A stretch of DNA of 64,000 nucleotides, taken from positions 1-64,000 of the forward strand of contig NZ_AUFL01000004.1 of the NCBI RefSeq assembly GCF_000426485.1, given 5' to 3'. This DNA is from Indolivaga capnocytophagoides DSM 22835 (GTDB lineage: Bacteria; Bacteroidota; Bacteroidia; Bacteroidales; Dysgonomonadaceae). Below the pieces are notes generated by a model. It was given only the letters and a program-made list of their open reading frames with translations. It ran no database searches and had not been told where the DNA came from. The translations under genes and the position numbers were made by a program. This document shows, one piece after another, positions 1,634 through 63,014 of the stretch (its first letter is position 1; every line of letters starts with the position of its first letter).

Positions 1634-2064
1634 TCTAAAAATTTATTTGTAAATTTACTTCAAGTAATGTGGTAGACCTTTTTGTTGACATTGTAAGCAT
1701 AATAAGAACAGTTAGTTATCATTTTGAAATGAAATGTTGAACTCTATCTGTTACTTAATATCAGTACAAATGTATGCTATAATATCTGTATATTATTAGT
1801 ATATCTTTATAATTAATCATAATAAAGAATTAAAAATACTATATATAGCATCCATTTATCTATATATTAAATCTCATAATATATAGTGGAAATATGTGTT
1901 GTAGAACACTTTTTTTTTGGTGTGTTGACAAATTGAGATAGCTACTTTTACAGTCACAAAGCGATTAATAGATAAAAGAATATTTTCTTAATATAACTTG
2001 CTGATGTGTGGTTATATACATGTATTGAATATGATCTAATAATGTAAATTTAAAATAAAAGGAA
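1634..2064. other. Gene-free AT-rich gap between the TPR gene and galM
   Basis: These 431 bases separate two divergent genes. No open reading frame or RNA gene was recognised. A minus-strand -7-like box (CAAATGTA at 1767-1774, read in reverse) and a weak plus-strand candidate (TTG 1925-1927, TACTTTTA 1943-1950) are the only promoter hints, and both have poor spacing or a poor -33 element. CTGTTACTTA at 1748-1757 matches the core of the repeat described at 4703, 8511 and 62993. Confidence 0.5.
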
Positions 2065-3144: not shown

Positions 3145-3167
3145 TTAAAGTTGTATGCCTGTATAGT

Positions 3168-3235
3168 TTGGTAGTGAAATAACGAAAGTTTTTTGCATTA
3201 TAATATTAATTATCAAATACTTTCTTTTACATAAT
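3168..3235 (+). repeat. Dispersed intergenic repeat, copy upstream of the sugar permease
   Basis: TTGGTAGTGAAATAACGAAA followed by TTTTTT, and then TATCAAATACTTTCTTTTAC, align in order with TTGGTAAGTGAAACAACCAA and TAAATACTTGCTGTTACTTA at 62944-63014. The two stretches lie in the same order about 40 bases apart, each directly upstream of a gene start. Confidence 0.5.
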
Positions 3236-4664: not shown

Positions 4665-4724
4665 AGGTCTTATACTTATTGCTTTATCAATAAGCTGTGT
4701 TATTAAATGCTTGCTGTTACTTAT
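4664..4724. repeat. Dispersed intergenic repeat, partial copy
   Basis: It starts with a degenerate AGGTCTTATACTT half of the GGTCTnAGACC palindrome and ends with TTAAATGCTTGCTGTTACTT (4703-4722). The latter differs at one base from the copy at 62993-63012. It lies in the 391-base gap between the permease and tkt, which otherwise holds only the terminator and the tkt promoter. Confidence 0.5.
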
Positions 4725-7027: not shown

Positions 7028-7083
7028 AGTTTCAGCTCGCTCTGCTTGTTGATTCTCTTGGTAAGTATATCATTAATATAAAT

Positions 7084-7097
7084 AGGTCTGTGACCTT
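7084..7097. repeat. GGTCTnAGACC-type palindrome
   Basis: AGGTCTGTGACCTT, a copy of the dispersed palindrome (consensus TAAGGTCTnAGACCTTA), centred 15-30 bases upstream of the rpiB start codon. Confidence 0.5.
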
Positions 7098-7112
7098 AAA
7101 ATAGAATTAAAG

Positions 7113-7580
7113 ATGGCTGCTTCACTTTCATTATTTTCGCAATCAGAGAAACCTATAGGTATCTGTAGCGACCATGCAGGATTTGAAATGAAATCGTACC
7201 TGATATCTTTATTTGAAGAAAAAGGTATAGTGTATAAAGATTTCGGAACATATTCGGGCGAGAGCTGTGACTATGCCGATTTTGCACATCCACTAGCGAT
7301 TGCTGTCGAAAATGGAGAATGCTATCCCGGTATCGGATTATGCGGAAGTGGTAATGGTATCAATATCACATTGAACAAGCATCAGGGAATACGTTCGGCT
7401 TTGTGTTGGACTGAAGAAATCGCAGGATTGGCACGTGCTCATAATGATGCTAATATTATTGTCCTTCCTGCCCGATTTATTTCGGAAGAGGAAGCGTATA
7501 ATATTCTGGTGAAATTTTTGAATACACCGTTCGAAGGTGGGCGGCATCAAAAACGTATTGATAAGATTCCTGTAAAATGA
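7113..7580 (+). CDS. rpiB: Ribose-5-phosphate isomerase B
   Basis: A 155-residue member of the RpiB/LacAB family, interconverting ribose 5-phosphate and ribulose 5-phosphate. CSDHAGFEMK (about residues 18-27), the acidic YADFAHPLA stretch and GLCGSGNGINITLNKHQGIR (about 73-92) with the catalytic cysteine are the family marks. The C-terminal RHQKRIDKI is also typical. The first 13 residues (MAASLSLFSQSEK) extend beyond the usual start, but no closer ATG precedes the core. It follows tkt on the same strand, so the pair supplies pentose interconversion. A GGTCT palindrome lies just upstream and a terminator at 7602 follows. Confidence 0.94.
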   Translation: MAASLSLFSQSEKPIGICSDHAGFEMKSYLISLFEEKGIVYKDFGTYSGESCDYADFAHPLAIAVENGECYPGIGLCGSGNGINITLNKHQGIRSALCWTEEIAGLARAHNDANIIVLPARFISEEEAYNILVKFLNTPFEGGRHQKRIDKIPVK

Positions 7581-8405: not shown

Positions 8406-8425
8406 TAAGAAAACCATGAGAAATT

Positions 8426-8531
8426 AAGGTGTCAGACCTATTTATTTATGAATAATCACAGGTAAACGTGTTGATATACTTGTTAACTAGAAGATTTGTT
8501 TACTGTATATATAAATACTTGCTGTAACTTA
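8426..8531. repeat. Composite dispersed repeat: GGTGTCAGACC palindrome plus TAAATACTTGCTG motif
   Basis: AAGGTGTCAGACCTA (8426-8440) is a near copy of the dispersed palindrome, and ATAAATACTTGCTGTAACTT (8511-8530) is a near copy of the second motif, about 85 bases downstream. The same order is found at 48519-48614 and 62921-63014. It lies within the 413-base gap upstream of the lysozyme gene. Confidence 0.5.
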
Positions 8532-8634
8532 AATATTCTAATTCACTCACAGTATTTTTGAATAAGCCTTAAAATATTACCTTTGTCAGTATCAAGCAGC
8601 ATAAATATTTTTATCTATATATAGAGCGTAGATA

Positions 8635-8749
8635 AGTTAACAGTCATTAGTTATCAACTGAAAAGGTAAAAAGTAACATCTGAAAAATTGTACATTGATA
8701 ATGTAACCTTTGTTACCTTTTCGAAATAAAACATTGATGACTGTTAACT
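8635..8749. repeat. 115-bp palindromic element with perfect 13-bp inverted ends
   Basis: AGTTAACAGTCAT (8635-8647) is perfectly repeated in inverse as ATGACTGTTAACT (8737-8749). Inside, GAAAAGGTAA (8660-8669) pairs with TTACCTTTTC (8713-8722), and TACAT/ATGTA (8691-8705) can close the loop. The element is non-coding and MITE-like in shape. It contains GTAACCTTTGTTAC, which recurs at 47586 and, with one change, at 47685. No clear target duplication was seen. Confidence 0.55.
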
Positions 8750-8787
8750 GACAACTGTTTATTGTTCGGCTTAGTTGAAAAGTAAAA

Positions 8788-17433: not shown

Positions 17434-17574
17434 AATTCACTCGAATATGTAGTTGTCTGTATGCGAAAAGGTCGAAAGATCGGAATGCTTTCCGGATGTA
17501 TATTTTAGTCTGTATAGACGTCTCTTAATGCTAGGTAATAACAGGTCGTTATTGATTTCAGGAGAGACAATAAG

Positions 17575-17625
17575 CAGGTCTGAGACCTTAAATCTTATCG
17601 CATAGAATAAATACTTTACTCTATA
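17575..17625. repeat. GGTCTGAGACC palindrome with adjacent AAATACTTTAC motif
   Basis: CAGGTCTGAGACCTTA (17575-17590) is a near-perfect copy of the dispersed palindrome; AATAAATACTTTACTCTATA follows about 20 bases later and resembles the second motif. It sits between the divergent trehalose synthase and GH15 genes. Confidence 0.5.
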
Positions 17626-19570: not shown

Positions 19571-19583
19571 AGGTCTGAAACCT
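19571..19583. repeat. GGTCTnAGACC-type palindrome
   Basis: AGGTCTGAAACCT, one mismatch from symmetry, directly after the stop of the PepSY gene. Confidence 0.45.
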
Positions 19584-21860: not shown

Positions 21861-21877
21861 TAAGGTCTCAGACCTTA
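21861..21877. repeat. GGTCTnAGACC palindrome, best copy
   Basis: TAAGGTCTCAGACCTTA is a perfect 8-1-8 inverted repeat placed just downstream of the TonB receptor stop codon. It is the reference copy for the dispersed family. Confidence 0.6.
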
Positions 21878-21881
21878 GTTA

Positions 21882-24257
21882 TCAGAAGCGATAAGTGATG
21901 TTTGCAAGGAACTGTCTCGGGGATTGTGTTTCTCCGTAATAGTCTCCTAACCAATATCTTTTATCTGTGATATTATTTAGCTTAGCTCCGATTCTGAAAT
22001 TGGAATATTCATAAAAAACAGTGGCATCGAGTTTTCCGTATCCGGATACTGTAATACTGTTTTTTGCATCCAGAAAACTGCTGCTCGCAAAGTTTCCTCC
22101 AAGACCGATACCAAATCCTTTTAATGTTCCATTCAGAATTTTCTGGCTGATCCAGAAGTTTCCAAGATGTTTGGGTGTTGCGATATCTCTTTTTCCGTTA
22201 GCATCGCCTTTTTCGAACTTGTTATCGTTGAAAGCATATCCTATAATGATGTGCATCCCCGGCAGAGGGTTTGCAATGACATCCATTTCGAAACCTTTAC
22301 TTATCTGGGTTGCGTCCTGTACACTGTAATTAGTTGCAGTAGATCCTTCGGGAGACGCAATTGAACGAATTCTGTCTTCCACCTTTATATGATAAAAACT
22401 AATAGTACTGTTTAGTTTCTTATCAAAGAATTCCAGTTTAAAACCTCCTTCCCACTGGAAGGCATGTTCGGGTTTGAAGGGTTTGATTTCACCTTCGGGA
22501 TTAGCTATTGCAGGTCCTTTGTTTTTAAATCCGTTCATGTAATTTGCAAAGATAGAAGCTTTATCTTTTACTACTTGATAGACAATCCCAAATTTTGGAG
22601 ACCAAGCCGATTGCATATAATTGTTTTGCACATCATCAAAGCGGTCGAAACGTACACTCGCCATAACATCCAGTTGTTCAGTGATATTAAAAACATCCGA
22701 AACATAGGCACTATATGTTCGTGTGAAACGTTTGTTTGCAGATGGTTTATTAGCACTTGCCAGCTTATTGTTATATTGGTCGAGGAAAATAGGAGCATCT
22801 TGCCCATGTAAGCCTATGTTTCCTGTTGTATTGCCATTCAGACTCTTATCATATGGATTAAGGGTCGAACGGGTGTCACTTGTTGTTAAACGAGTATAAT
22901 CTAATCCGACAAGAACTCTGTTTCTGAATTGTCCGAGGTAAAAATCACCGTTGAAATTTTGTTGTAATTGTTGTGTCGTAAATACACTTGGTATGTGCAT
23001 CATACGTCTGCGCAGACTGTCTTTTGAATACACATCAAGAAAAATATAGTTCGCATCGTTGTCTGTACGTGCATATGAACCTAAAGTCTGCGATGTCCAG
23101 TTCTCCGAAATTTTGTATTTGACCTCACCGAATACATTTAATACTTCGGCTTTACTGGTTACATCATTTGATGCAAAGGATTTATCCCAATCCCAGTTCA
23201 AATCATTTAAGTTTGAAATAATTCCGCTGCTAGGGTTGATGTAAGCTGTTGTACGGTTCGATTTGAAATATTCGGCATCAACAGTAACTGATAACCTTTC
23301 GCTTGCATTATAAGTAATGGTAGGCGCAACCATAAAAGTTTTATTGATACCATAATCTTTATACGAATTCTCTTTGTGTAATGCTGTATTTACACGAAAA
23401 AGGACTTTTCCTTCGTTATCGAGCGGGGTATTATAATCGGCAGTAACACGGCCTAATCCCCATGCTCCGGCTGTGAATCCTACTTCTCCTGATTTTCCGT
23501 CATGAGCTTTTTTTGTTACTCTATTAACAAGGCCTCCATACGAAATAAGGTTTGTTCCGAATAATGTTGCAGACGGACCTTTGATCACTTCGATGCTTTC
23601 GAGATTAGCAGGATCCGACAATGATACATAATTTGTTGCCATACCATTACGGATAGATCCTGCTCCGTCCGCTCCAGCGAAGCCACGTAGACGCATTGCC
23701 AATCCTGTACCTCCTGATCCGACACCTAATGTTGCTCCAGATACACCCGGGGCTGAAGTCAGTACATTCTTAAAATCAACCGCGATCTGCTCACCCAGCA
23801 GTTCTTTTGGTATTACTGTATATACCTGAGGATTCTCGAGGTTTTTGACAGGCATACGGGCTACATAATCAGATTTTTTTTGAGCGAATTTGGTAATCAT
23901 ACTATTAACCACAACTTCGTTCAGGGCATTGGCTCCTAAGTCGAAAGTAATGTTGCCTACATTTACTGTTTTTCCGGCTTCGACTTTTACGGGCATTTCC
24001 TGGGTCTTGTTGCCCATATATGAAAATAGTACGGTGTAGCTGCCTTCGGCTACTTTAATTGCAAACTTACCGTTCTCGTCAGAGTAATCTCCTTTGCTGT
24101 TATTTTTGATGGATATCGATACCATCTCTATAGGAGTGCCTTCATTCGTTACAATTGTACCGGTAATTGTTCCCGTGTTCTGGGCTTTTACCATGATACA
24201 TGTCAATAAGAATAACAAACTGATTGTCATTCTGCATGCGACTTTTTTTAAGTTCAT
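21882..24257 (-). CDS. TonB-dependent siderophore receptor
   Basis: A 791-residue outer-membrane receptor. Signal peptide about 1-25 (VKAQ). A CarboxypepD-regulatory-like domain (about 28-108, GTITGTIVTNEGTPIEMVSI) precedes the plug (about 125-270, with VEVIKGPSATLFGTNL-like residues and GGLVNRVTKK). The 22-strand barrel ends with the terminal phenylalanine (LANITYRF). The barrel contains phrases of the ferrichrome/ferric-coprogen receptor group such as EGGFKLEFFDKKLNSTISFY and LDATVFYEYSNFRIG. It brings a ferric siderophore into the periplasm using TonB energy. It starts a three-gene unit with an esterase and a PepSY protein, preceded by a good promoter. Confidence 0.94.
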   Translation of the reverse strand: MNLKKVACRMTISLLFLLTCIMVKAQNTGTITGTIVTNEGTPIEMVSISIKNNSKGDYSDENGKFAIKVAEGSYTVLFSYMGNKTQEMPVKVEAGKTVNVGNITFDLGANALNEVVVNSMITKFAQKKSDYVARMPVKNLENPQVYTVIPKELLGEQIAVDFKNVLTSAPGVSGATLGVGSGGTGLAMRLRGFAGADGAGSIRNGMATNYVSLSDPANLESIEVIKGPSATLFGTNLISYGGLVNRVTKKAHDGKSGEVGFTAGAWGLGRVTADYNTPLDNEGKVLFRVNTALHKENSYKDYGINKTFMVAPTITYNASERLSVTVDAEYFKSNRTTAYINPSSGIISNLNDLNWDWDKSFASNDVTSKAEVLNVFGEVKYKISENWTSQTLGSYARTDNDANYIFLDVYSKDSLRRRMMHIPSVFTTQQLQQNFNGDFYLGQFRNRVLVGLDYTRLTTSDTRSTLNPYDKSLNGNTTGNIGLHGQDAPIFLDQYNNKLASANKPSANKRFTRTYSAYVSDVFNITEQLDVMASVRFDRFDDVQNNYMQSAWSPKFGIVYQVVKDKASIFANYMNGFKNKGPAIANPEGEIKPFKPEHAFQWEGGFKLEFFDKKLNSTISFYHIKVEDRIRSIASPEGSTATNYSVQDATQISKGFEMDVIANPLPGMHIIIGYAFNDNKFEKGDANGKRDIATPKHLGNFWISQKILNGTLKGFGIGLGGNFASSSFLDAKNSITVSGYGKLDATVFYEYSNFRIGAKLNNITDKRYWLGDYYGETQSPRQFLANITYRF

Positions 24258-25275: not shown

Positions 25276-25420
25276 TGCGACAATTTTTATTTCAATTATG
25301 TGTTGTTTAAATTTTCTCTTAATAAACAAATCAAGACAAATGGTTGTTTTATGTTTTTTAATAATTAGTGACAGAAAATATTTAATGATGTATTTTCTCA
25401 TACTTACTAAATCAATAAAA

Positions 25421-25433
25421 AGGTCTGGAACCT
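25421..25433. repeat. GGTCTnAGACC-type palindrome
   Basis: AGGTCTGGAACCT, a degenerate copy of the dispersed palindrome, 16 bases upstream of the rhodanese start codon. Confidence 0.42.
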
Positions 25434-25448
25434 CAAATAATAATTAAG

Positions 25449-38256: not shown

Positions 38257-38270
38257 GAGGTCTTAGACCC
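38257..38270. repeat. GGTCTnAGACC palindrome
   Basis: GAGGTCTTAGACCC, a strong copy of the dispersed palindrome, between the pheT terminator and the activase stop, followed by TTTT. Confidence 0.5.
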
Positions 38271-46599: not shown

Positions 46600-46634
46600 A
46601 ATGGATGAAGTATTTTCTTCATCCTTTTCTTTTA
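46600..46634. terminator. Convergent terminator
   Basis: GGATGAAG pairs with CTTCATCC over a TATTTT loop, with A tract before and T-rich tract after. It lies between the lipoprotein gene and the convergent DUF3109 gene. Confidence 0.8.
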
Positions 46635-47222
46635 TATTTTACCGTCTTCTTTCATCTTTTTATACTCGTCTACGGCAATGCAGAGTTCATTATACCATGC
46701 TTCACCGAATTTTCTGATTAGTGGGGTTTTTAAGAATTGGTATATTTTCAAACCCTCTTTATTACCTAGAGCAACAGCAGCTTTGCATACACTCCATCTG
46801 TGATAATTGACCGCTGTAAAGTCCCGGTATTTTTGGAGGCGGATAGGATATAGATGACACGAAATCGGCTTGTAAAAATCTGTCTTACCTTCTTTATGCG
46901 CTTTTTCTATGGCACATTTACATATGCCTTTTTCGTCGTAGTAAGTAAAAACGCAGTCTTTACCATTAACAATTGAGGTAACCATTTCTCCATCTGTATC
47001 TTTGTATGCAACCCCTGTTTTTTGTATTACCTTCTGAGCTTCGGGAGACAGGTCGTCCCAGACAAGAGGTAATATTTCTTCGAGAACTGCCACTTCTTCT
47101 TTTTCGAGGGGAGCTCCTGATTCTCCTTCTACGCAACATTCTCCCATGCAGGCGGAAAGGTCACACAAGAAATTTTCTTCTATAATGTCTAACGCTACTA
47201 TAGCATCGTCTATTTGTATCAT
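46632..47222 (-). CDS. DUF3109 family cysteine-rich protein
   Basis: A 196-residue cytoplasmic protein of the DUF3109 family, common in Bacteroidota and related to YkgJ-type metal-binding proteins. Cysteines are clustered: CDLSACMGECCVEG (about residues 19-32), then CVFTYYDEKGICKCAIEK and the PISCHLYPIR motif. Such spacing suggests an iron-sulfur or zinc site, possibly for redox or modification chemistry; the function is not known. It is transcribed alone; a -7 box (TATCTTTG on the minus strand, 47304-47311) lies 80 bases upstream and a GGTCT palindrome sits in the leader. Confidence 0.87.
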   Translation of the reverse strand: MIQIDDAIVALDIIEENFLCDLSACMGECCVEGESGAPLEKEEVAVLEEILPLVWDDLSPEAQKVIQKTGVAYKDTDGEMVTSIVNGKDCVFTYYDEKGICKCAIEKAHKEGKTDFYKPISCHLYPIRLQKYRDFTAVNYHRWSVCKAAVALGNKEGLKIYQFLKTPLIRKFGEAWYNELCIAVDEYKKMKEDGKI

Positions 47223-47243
47223 TCTGAATAATAAAATGTTTTA

Positions 47244-47259
47244 TAGGTCTAAGACCTTA
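47244..47259. repeat. GGTCTnAGACC palindrome
   Basis: TAGGTCTAAGACCTTA, a near-perfect copy of the dispersed palindrome, 22 bases upstream of the DUF3109 start codon. Confidence 0.5.
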
Positions 47260-47463: not shown

Positions 47464-47585
47464 TATGCCCAAACAATGAATATATTTCAAGGTGTTTGCT
47501 CTAATAAGTAAAATAATGTTGTAATATGCTAATGAGAAAATGTGCTAATAAAATAAGATTACTGATGGAAACGAACATAAAGCAT

Positions 47586-47700
47586 GTAACCTTTGTTACC
47601 TTTTCTTGTTAAATTTTGAATTATATGCATAATAAAAAGTGACACTATATAGAAAGGTAGCTAATACCCCGAAGTGAATATTAAGTAACTTTTGTTACCT
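47586..47700. repeat. GTAAC-n4-GTTAC palindromes, two copies
   Basis: GTAACCTTTGTTACCTTTTC at 47586-47605 and GTAACTTTTGTTACCTTTTT at 47685-47704, 99 bases apart. The first repeats the core of the 115-bp element at 8703-8722 exactly. Confidence 0.5.
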
Positions 47701-47751
47701 TTTTGAAAATCAATGATGAAAAATGAATTGCTTCCGGTTGATAATTGTTTA

Positions 47752-47804: not shown

Positions 47805-48521
47805 ATGAAAATAGATGTTTGTTTTTCTCCTGTATTGTATCCGTATTATAAGGATAGCGGAGATACTATCGTTGTAGTGGTGGATATTTTCAGAGCAACA
47901 ACCAGTATGTGTATGGCTCTTAATAATGGGGCAAGCAGTATTATGCCGGTTGCGACTGTGGAAGAAGCCAAGGCATATAAAGATAAAGGCTATCTGGTTG
48001 GAGGAGAGCGCAACGTTGTGAAGTTTGAATTTGGTGATTTTGGTAATACTCCGTCTGAATACACAAGAGAAAAGGTTGAAGGCAGAGACGTAGTTATTTC
48101 TACAACAAACGGAACTCATGCCATTGATATGGCCGAAGATTGTTCGTGCCTTATTATCGGTTCTTTCTCGAATTTGTCGAAGGTTGCTGCATATTGTATC
48201 GAGCAGAAAAAAGATGTTTTGGTATTATGTGCAGGCTGGAAAGATAAATTTAATCTCGAAGATTCTTTATTTGGCGGCGCATTAGTAGAAGCTTTGGTTG
48301 AGAAAGGAGGTTATAATGCCCGTTTCGATGCGGCGGGTGTTGCCCTTTCTATGTGGAGGGATGCAAAACCGGATGTTATGAAATACATTGCGAACGGTGA
48401 ACATATGAAAAGGCTCGAAGATCATGGTTTAGTTGATGTAGCCCGTTTCTGTGTTACAATAGATACAGTGAATGTATTGCCTGTTTATAATAAACATACT
48501 AAAAAGATAACAGTAATATAA
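47805..48521 (+). CDS. comB: ComB family 2-phosphosulfolactate phosphatase-like protein
   Basis: A 238-residue member of the ComB family. In methanogens ComB removes phosphate from 2-phosphosulfolactate during coenzyme M synthesis. Conserved phrases are VVVVDIFRATTSM, GGERN, GNTPSEYT, ISTTNGTHAI and LVLCAGWKDKFNLEDSLFGG. No other coenzyme M or sulfolactate gene was seen nearby, so the physiological substrate in this bacterium is open. It is transcribed alone from its own promoter; a GGTCTCAGACC palindrome starts directly after the stop. Confidence 0.88.
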   Translation: MKIDVCFSPVLYPYYKDSGDTIVVVVDIFRATTSMCMALNNGASSIMPVATVEEAKAYKDKGYLVGGERNVVKFEFGDFGNTPSEYTREKVEGRDVVISTTNGTHAIDMAEDCSCLIIGSFSNLSKVAAYCIEQKKDVLVLCAGWKDKFNLEDSLFGGALVEALVEKGGYNARFDAAGVALSMWRDAKPDVMKYIANGEHMKRLEDHGLVDVARFCVTIDTVNVLPVYNKHTKKITVI

Positions 48522-48614
48522 GGTCTCAGACCCTTTTATTGCTTAGGATTGTTAGAAGTCCGGAACTTATAATGATTCGGATGCGAGATCATTAAATACT
48601 TTATCTCACTAAAT
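48519..48614. repeat. Composite dispersed repeat: GGTCTCAGACC palindrome plus TAAATACTT motif
   Basis: TAAGGTCTCAGACCCTTTT begins at the comB stop codon, and ATTAAATACTTTATCTCACT (48591-48610) stands about 70 bases later. Order and spacing match the copies at 8426-8531 and 62921-63014. Confidence 0.5.
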
Positions 48615-48656: not shown

Positions 48657-48668
48657 GCTAACCAAAAT

Positions 48669-48683
48669 AAGGTCTCTGATCTT
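48669..48683. repeat. GGTCTnAGACC-type palindrome, degenerate
   Basis: AAGGTCTCTGATCTT, two mismatches from the consensus, about 100 bases upstream of the next gene. Confidence 0.38.
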
Positions 48684-48780
48684 TTTTGTTAACTAAATAA
48701 CAGAAACATTGATAAGTAGTTATCTCTTAAGAGTATTGCCCAAAATACTTTTATTATTTAATATAATTGATTGAAAATAT

Positions 48781-55684: not shown

Positions 55685-55700
55685 AAGGTCAGAGGCCTTA
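55685..55700. repeat. GGTCTnAGACC-type palindrome, variant
   Basis: AAGGTCAGAGGCCTTA, a variant with the same flanks AAGG/CCTT, in the leader of the small lipoprotein gene. Confidence 0.4.
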
Positions 55701-62920: not shown

Positions 62921-63014
62921 TAAGGTCTCAGAGCTATTTTTTGTTTTGGTAAGTGAAACAACCAAAGTTTTTTATAAACTAAAAGTATATAATTAAATAC
63001 TTGCTGTTACTTAT
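62921..63014. repeat. Composite dispersed repeat, most complete copy
   Basis: TAAGGTCTCAGAGCT (62921-62935), TTGGTAAGTGAAACAACCAA (62946-62965) and TAAATACTTGCTGTTACTTA (62994-63013) occur in order within 94 bases. The last part ends 9 bases before the next start codon. Parts recur at 3168-3235, 4664-4724, 8426-8531 and 48519-48614. Confidence 0.55.

Follow-up and report, generated by a model that had tools for sequence, protein, structure and literature searches.

The palindrome and the element behind it

The window, meaning the whole stretch of 64,000 nucleotides analyzed here, has a 5S rRNA gene at 174-284 and therefore probably begins just after an rRNA operon; Rfam gave no match except 5S rRNA in the window and four sampled loci. 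Scattered between its genes is a short palindrome, of which a dozen dispersed copies had been listed by the original prediction, and all 12 are present at their positions (Table 1). Exact GGTCTNAGACC occurs 5 times in the window, at 17577, 21864, 38259, 47246, and 48522, and the remaining copies carry one or two mismatches. Is this more than composition would give? Window matches with up to 2 mismatches number 24 versus 13 expected and by themselves are weak evidence. The exact count is not weak. The genome-wide count of the consensus that had been proposed as a check lies far above its control, with 320 exact matches in the 4.38-Mb genome and 0 for the reversed pattern. The listed copies are also intergenic, as claimed. 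In a sample of 1.242 Mb (28% of the 4.38-Mb genome), in which coding sequence makes up 83%, the stem GGTC-N3-GACC is found 194 times between genes and 4 times within them. For other inverted repeats of the 4-3-4 form with similar composition, the median counts are 1 between genes and 5 within them.

The reference copy had been described as a perfect 8-1-8 inverted repeat. The hairpin stands, but the full dyad does not: the central pair varies and is not kept as a pair, so the structure is better described as a 6-bp stem closed by a 3-nt loop of the type NCA. The intergenic loop types are TCA (105), ACA (32), and GCA (19).

What had escaped the original prediction is that the palindrome is usually the end of an element of about 90 nt. 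Alignment of the flanks revealed conserved sequence on one side only, and the resulting element of about 89 bp, AGGTC(NCA)GACCT...GTTACT, has the hairpin AAGGTC-NCA-GACCTT at its left end and ...GTTACT at its right. Its consensus is AAGGTCTCAGACCTATTTATTGCTTTGGCAAGTATAACAACAAAAGTCTGTTATAACTTTAAAATATATCATTAAATACTTTCTGTTACTTA, with a G+C content of 26%. A 92-column profile built from full copies found 161 copies at E<1e-3 in the 1.242-Mb sample, 160 of them intergenic and 118 running from end to end. Scaling from the sampled 28% suggests an estimated 500 to 600 copies in the whole genome. A further 101 sites have the palindrome with no recognizable tail (17 at stop codons and 34 at start codons) and are probably old, decayed, or truncated copies that have lost it.

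The copies are not uniform. In an alignment of 40, inspected by eye, at least 4 subfamilies split at several linked columns and the loop type is tied to the subfamily, a pattern that would be expected if a small number of source copies had been amplified. The stem CTTTGG/CCAAAG exists in two versions through the pair 27-42 (G-C in 43, T-A in 40). A conserved RNA structure was considered and set aside, as covariation is dominated by the differences between subfamilies, and we claim no RNA function. A sister species carries its own element consensus. Besides the form of about 90 nt there is a longer one, with about 75 extra nucleotides after the palindrome; it was seen at L112:640-794, L118:4431, L141:7764, and L062:16877-17042, where a CGCGATTYGGCA...GCTCTCACTGC block lies between the palindrome and the CTTTGG stretch.

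Table 1. Copies and remnants of the element in the window
Feature	Position	Strand	Remarks
Degenerate full-length copy	1666-1757	+	Palindrome decayed; absent from the earlier list; profile 9-92, E 1e-11
Probable tail-only remnant	3167-3230	+	Weak profile match, E 0.06; repeat D3
Probable tail-only remnant	4688-4723	+	Weak profile match, E 0.03; repeat D4
Truncated copy	7052-7097	-	In gap 7028-7112
Copy with diverged middle	8425-8531	+	Palindrome TAAGGTGTCAGACCT to ...CTGTAACTTA; profile 1-91, weak E 0.02; both end motifs are repeats D2 and D4
5' part of copy	17529-17590	-	Exact palindrome; profile 1-63, E 4e-5
Palindrome remnant	19571-19583	-	One of the listed copies
Reference copy, palindrome-only remnant	21861-21877	.	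4 nt past stop codon of TonB-dependent receptor gene 21882-24257(-)
Internally deleted 69-nt copy	25366-25434	-	Both ends present; palindrome 15 nt upstream of gene 25449; E 1.6e-8
Palindrome-only copy	38257-38270	+	One of the listed copies
Palindrome-only copy	47243-47259	-	21 nt upstream of start of gene 46632-47222(-)
Full-length copy	48519-48612	+	TAA 48519-48521 is the stop codon of gene 47805-48521
Near-full copy	48668-48760	+	3' end decayed; profile 1-82, E 7e-5
Palindrome variant AAGGTCAGAGGCCTTA	55685-55700	.	One of the listed copies
Best full-length copy	62921-63013	+	TA 62921-62922, element AGGTCTCAGAGCT...GTTACT 62923-63011, TA 63012-63013; profile 1-92, E 2e-18

Other repeats were noticed as well. 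At window 8606-8765 lies another dispersed repeat, a long inverted repeat TTAACAGTCAT...ATGACTGTTAAC enclosing TGTAACCTTTGTTACCTTTTC. It matches about 25 further places in the genome, and no match is listed for relatives; related pieces are found at window 47581-47609 and 47680-47708. A repeat of 200 to 470 nt, apparently noncoding, occurs at L150:1-430 (G000:C8:1-430) and L132:6667-7136. Its core is 76 to 81% identical across the genus, and G005 has over 25 copies. A Y1 gene resembling RAYT lies at L176:5931-6467 in G001 and has flanking palindromes of its own, GGGATTTGCAATCCC and GGATTTGCAATCC, probably a separate REP system, and a GGGATTTGCAATCC stretch near L061 3290 in the present genome resembles them.

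Ends, target sites, and mobility

The two ends of the element follow the same plan. Reading inward from TA, each has AG, 10 bases, and then TWTTTAWTG (TA-AG-N10-TWTTTAWTG). The terminal inverted repeat is weak, since just 11 of 24 positions agree between the end consensuses (shuffle p 0.013). Inverted pairs of the end motif number 48 at spacings of 80 to 99 nt, and no other 20-nt class above 250 nt holds more than 4; this concentration partly reflects the way in which the motif was obtained. At its foot the hairpin has TA-A in 83 to 100% of copies, and there is no GTAG-type REP tag.

Does the element move? Across 118 scored copies, flanking duplication is slightly above chance (10 4-mers versus 4.7), a signal that is expected of old copies and not strong by itself, and empty sites were therefore examined instead. 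G001 and G003, two species of the genus that are mostly 84 to 93% identical in syntenic stretches, provide sites with and without the element. (i) At L111:8335-8431, by local flank matching, the occupied site reads AATAATTA[AGGTC...GTTACT]TATTTAC / TATTTACAAC and the empty site of G003 reads AATAATTATTTAC / AATAATTATTTACAAT. (ii) At L113:1863-1956, in the same sense, the occupied site is AATTA[AGGTCTC...GTTACT]TAATAACC and the empty site of G003 is AATTAATAACC. (iii) At L102:4791-4882, the occupied ...ACTA[AGATCTC...GTAGT]TAATAATTC is matched by the empty AACTAATTACTC in L103. The first pair excludes TAA as the common duplication and the third excludes TTA, which leaves TA. Read together, the three junction pairs thus give the target-site duplication of MITEs and of IS630/Tc1-mariner-type elements. 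Against the model, the junctions of some occupied/empty pairs show extra bases or small deletions.

A further comparison comes from the interval that separates the gene at window 7027 from the one at 7113. G003 and G002 have no element there, while a full copy is present in G005 and a copy of 51 nt in G001, both at the same stop codon; the present genome carries a truncated copy in the opposite orientation elsewhere in the gap. The 51-nt insertion of G001, empty in G003, keeps both end motifs as judged by eye. Orthologous sites both occupied and empty, the mark of mobility in a MITE, are therefore at hand, and together with the TA duplication and the subfamilies they support the suggestion of a small mobile repeat, one of three readings that the original prediction had offered.

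What might move the element? At about 89 bp it is too short to encode a transposase, and it has the attributes expected of a MITE in being short, present at high copy number, and free of a transposase gene. In the sampled part of the genomes, no paired end motifs surround a transposase open reading frame as they would in an autonomous long version, and the sample contains just two long DNA repeats, a 918-nt pair, which includes a 600-nt gene, and a 470-nt pair. DDE_3, the IS630-type transposase domain, was found in 0 of 6 genomes of the genus, which rules against an IS630 partner. Many accepted bacterial MITEs have no known autonomous partner, the presence of which is helpful but not required.

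The distribution of the element is patchy. Palindrome counts in the genus are 276, 267, 40, 122, and 123, with a single 0 in a genome that is 62% complete, and are near 0 in most of the family. Records of Dysgonomonas alginatilytica and Dysgonomonas sp. HGC4 contain full or partial copies, and none was found in the non-Dysgonomonas loci that hold the 17-mer. The window presumably therefore belongs to Dysgonomonas or to a close neighbor of it. At L033:664-850 of D. alginatilytica, two adjoining copies share a TA junction, one of them nearly identical to L165:4128-4223 of G001.

A preference for stop codons

In 26 of 117 near-full copies, the TAA at the palindrome's own end is the stop codon of the preceding gene. 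Only 1.8 would be expected in that orientation, assuming that the TAs of stop codons are hit in proportion to all intergenic TAs, and about 2 copies meet a stop codon by their tail end. Where a related species allowed comparison, the stop codon is the native one at L102:9943, 14091, and 14689 (compared with G005), at L150:18221 (compared with G002), and in the window-7027 gap; at L102:8827 it is shifted by a codon relative to related species. TA targeting alone does not explain this preference. An entry mechanism that is directional and senses the ends of translated or transcribed regions (for example by way of an R-loop, the structure of the nascent transcript, or an RNA step) strikes us as distinctly unlikely, though if true it would explain why native TAA stops are met by the palindrome end in one orientation only. 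Palindrome ends also cluster 10 to 30 nt upstream of start codons, with 30 at 12 to 20 nt versus 11 expected. Insertion between promoter and start would presumably be tolerated.

Weighing the explanations

Direct observation of the copies, their ends and subfamilies, the occupied and empty sites, and the TA duplication makes it very probable that the repeat is a miniature noncoding DNA transposon, a MITE about 89 bp long that targets TA and duplicates it on insertion. Could it be a REP element instead, in which the palindrome is moved as single-stranded DNA by a RAYT (Y1/HUH) enzyme, often in head-to-head pairs? The intergenic placement, the hundreds of copies, the hairpin at one end, the solo palindromes, and the few inverted pairs all recall such elements, and orientation follows the replication strand moderately (152:85 by GC skew, p 1.6e-5) and is not biased overall by gene direction (69 same, 81 opposite). 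However, the RAYT gene that the original prediction proposed to look for is absent: Y1 transposases are missing from this genome and from G003. G001, G002, and G005 each have one weak Y1 gene, with no element palindrome (the AAGGTCNCAGACCTT hairpin) within about 2 kb, and that of G001 is flanked by its different GGATTTGCAATCC. Also at odds with a REP are the duplicated TA and the right end, which is fixed at a distance of 89 nt, and in its strict sense the term REP-like, used originally, does not hold; this explanation is very unlikely. The repeat might otherwise be an intrinsic terminator or a protector of mRNA 3' ends that is selected beside stop codons, a role compatible with a mobile origin. 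A T-rich run follows the palindrome, 24 copies begin exactly on a stop codon in sense orientation as opposed to 2 by the tail end, and palindrome-only copies persist at stops and starts. Against this, the predicted hairpin is weak (-5.0 kcal/mol), the share of copies at stops does not rise with age (11, 8, and 7 of 39 each, from young to old), 60 of 223 copies lie between divergent genes, and the copy at L102:14689 still has a strong native terminator behind it. This explanation is unlikely.

The two remaining options of the original prediction fare worse. A binding site, fixed in position, for an abundant regulator or nucleoid protein would suit a near-perfect palindrome with hundreds of copies and a peak upstream of start codons, but presence and absence differ between sister species that are about 90% identical, genomes of the genus carry anywhere from 0 to 276 copies, conservation spans 90 nt with subfamilies, and variation at the central bases does not preserve the dyad; such a site is highly improbable. 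A chromosome-organizing site of the matS, KOPS, or parS type draws on some regional structure of orientation on the closed chromosome of a relative (two-block p 0.004). On that chromosome (G005), however, copies are evenly spread along the first 3.7 Mb and most regions contain both orientations, and positions are polymorphic between sister species, so that this explanation can be given almost no weight.

How, then, might the MITE work? A transposase supplied in trans from elsewhere would bind the subterminal TWTTTAWTG, 12 nt inside the TA, at both ends. Judging from the structure of the element and from what is generally known of MITEs that target TA, the enzyme would be of the DDE type and would move the 89 bp into a new TA. 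Repeated bursts from few master copies may have followed, and copies that hit genes would have been lost. Where the TA belongs to a TAA stop codon, insertion would rebuild TAA, because the element begins with A, and such insertions should therefore be harmless to the protein. Most of the pattern needs no host function, although single copies may act as weak transcript hairpins or terminators.

The family rewrites intergenic regions, supplying stop codons and lying in the 5' leader or at the 3' end of many genes. Its copies can readily serve to mark recent genomic change between species. The directional taste for native stop codons is a testable puzzle in how small elements choose insertion sites or survive at them.

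Comparison with known repeats

No report of this MITE family turned up when the open literature was searched by sequence and by topic. It is a high-copy family of the Dysgonomonas lineage, new in itself and of a known kind of mobile DNA. REP/RAYT systems share with it an extragenic hairpin repeat in hundreds of copies (PMC3733652), while the element here has no RAYT in the genome, lacks the GTAG tag, and possesses a second defined end and a TA duplication. MITEs occur elsewhere in the Bacteroidales as well: BrickBuilt and other MITEs of Porphyromonas gingivalis have IS5-type ends, GAGACCTTTGCA, the tip of which, GAGACCTT, is also in the hairpin described here, though at 8 nt possibly by chance (PMC4596501). 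BrickBuilt differs in being far longer and in having internal tandem repeats of 23 nt, a copy number of about 19, and different target duplications.

Two other families are closer parallels. The Correia (NEMIS) elements of Neisseria have TA ends, a length of about 107 bp, and a longer variant with an internal extra block (PMC2229807), much as the present element has its form of about 90 nt and its longer form with about 75 extra nt; the terminal repeats of Correia are 24 bp, in contrast to ends that share about 11 of 24 positions here. The repeat unit of pneumococcus, RUP, is 107 bp long, and its proposed mover is IS630-Spn1 (PMC2229807, PMC3049150). The likeness, drawn by description, takes in size class, A+T richness, intergenic location, about 100 copies or more, a TA target, short terminal repeats (weak in the present element), and target duplication (PMC2229807, PMC3049150), while the present element has less similar ends, a hairpin at one end, and no DDE_3 in the six genomes. 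By analogy, RUP and Correia are its nearest counterparts, and the element fits among the small TA-flanked bacterial MITEs tabulated in PMC2229807.
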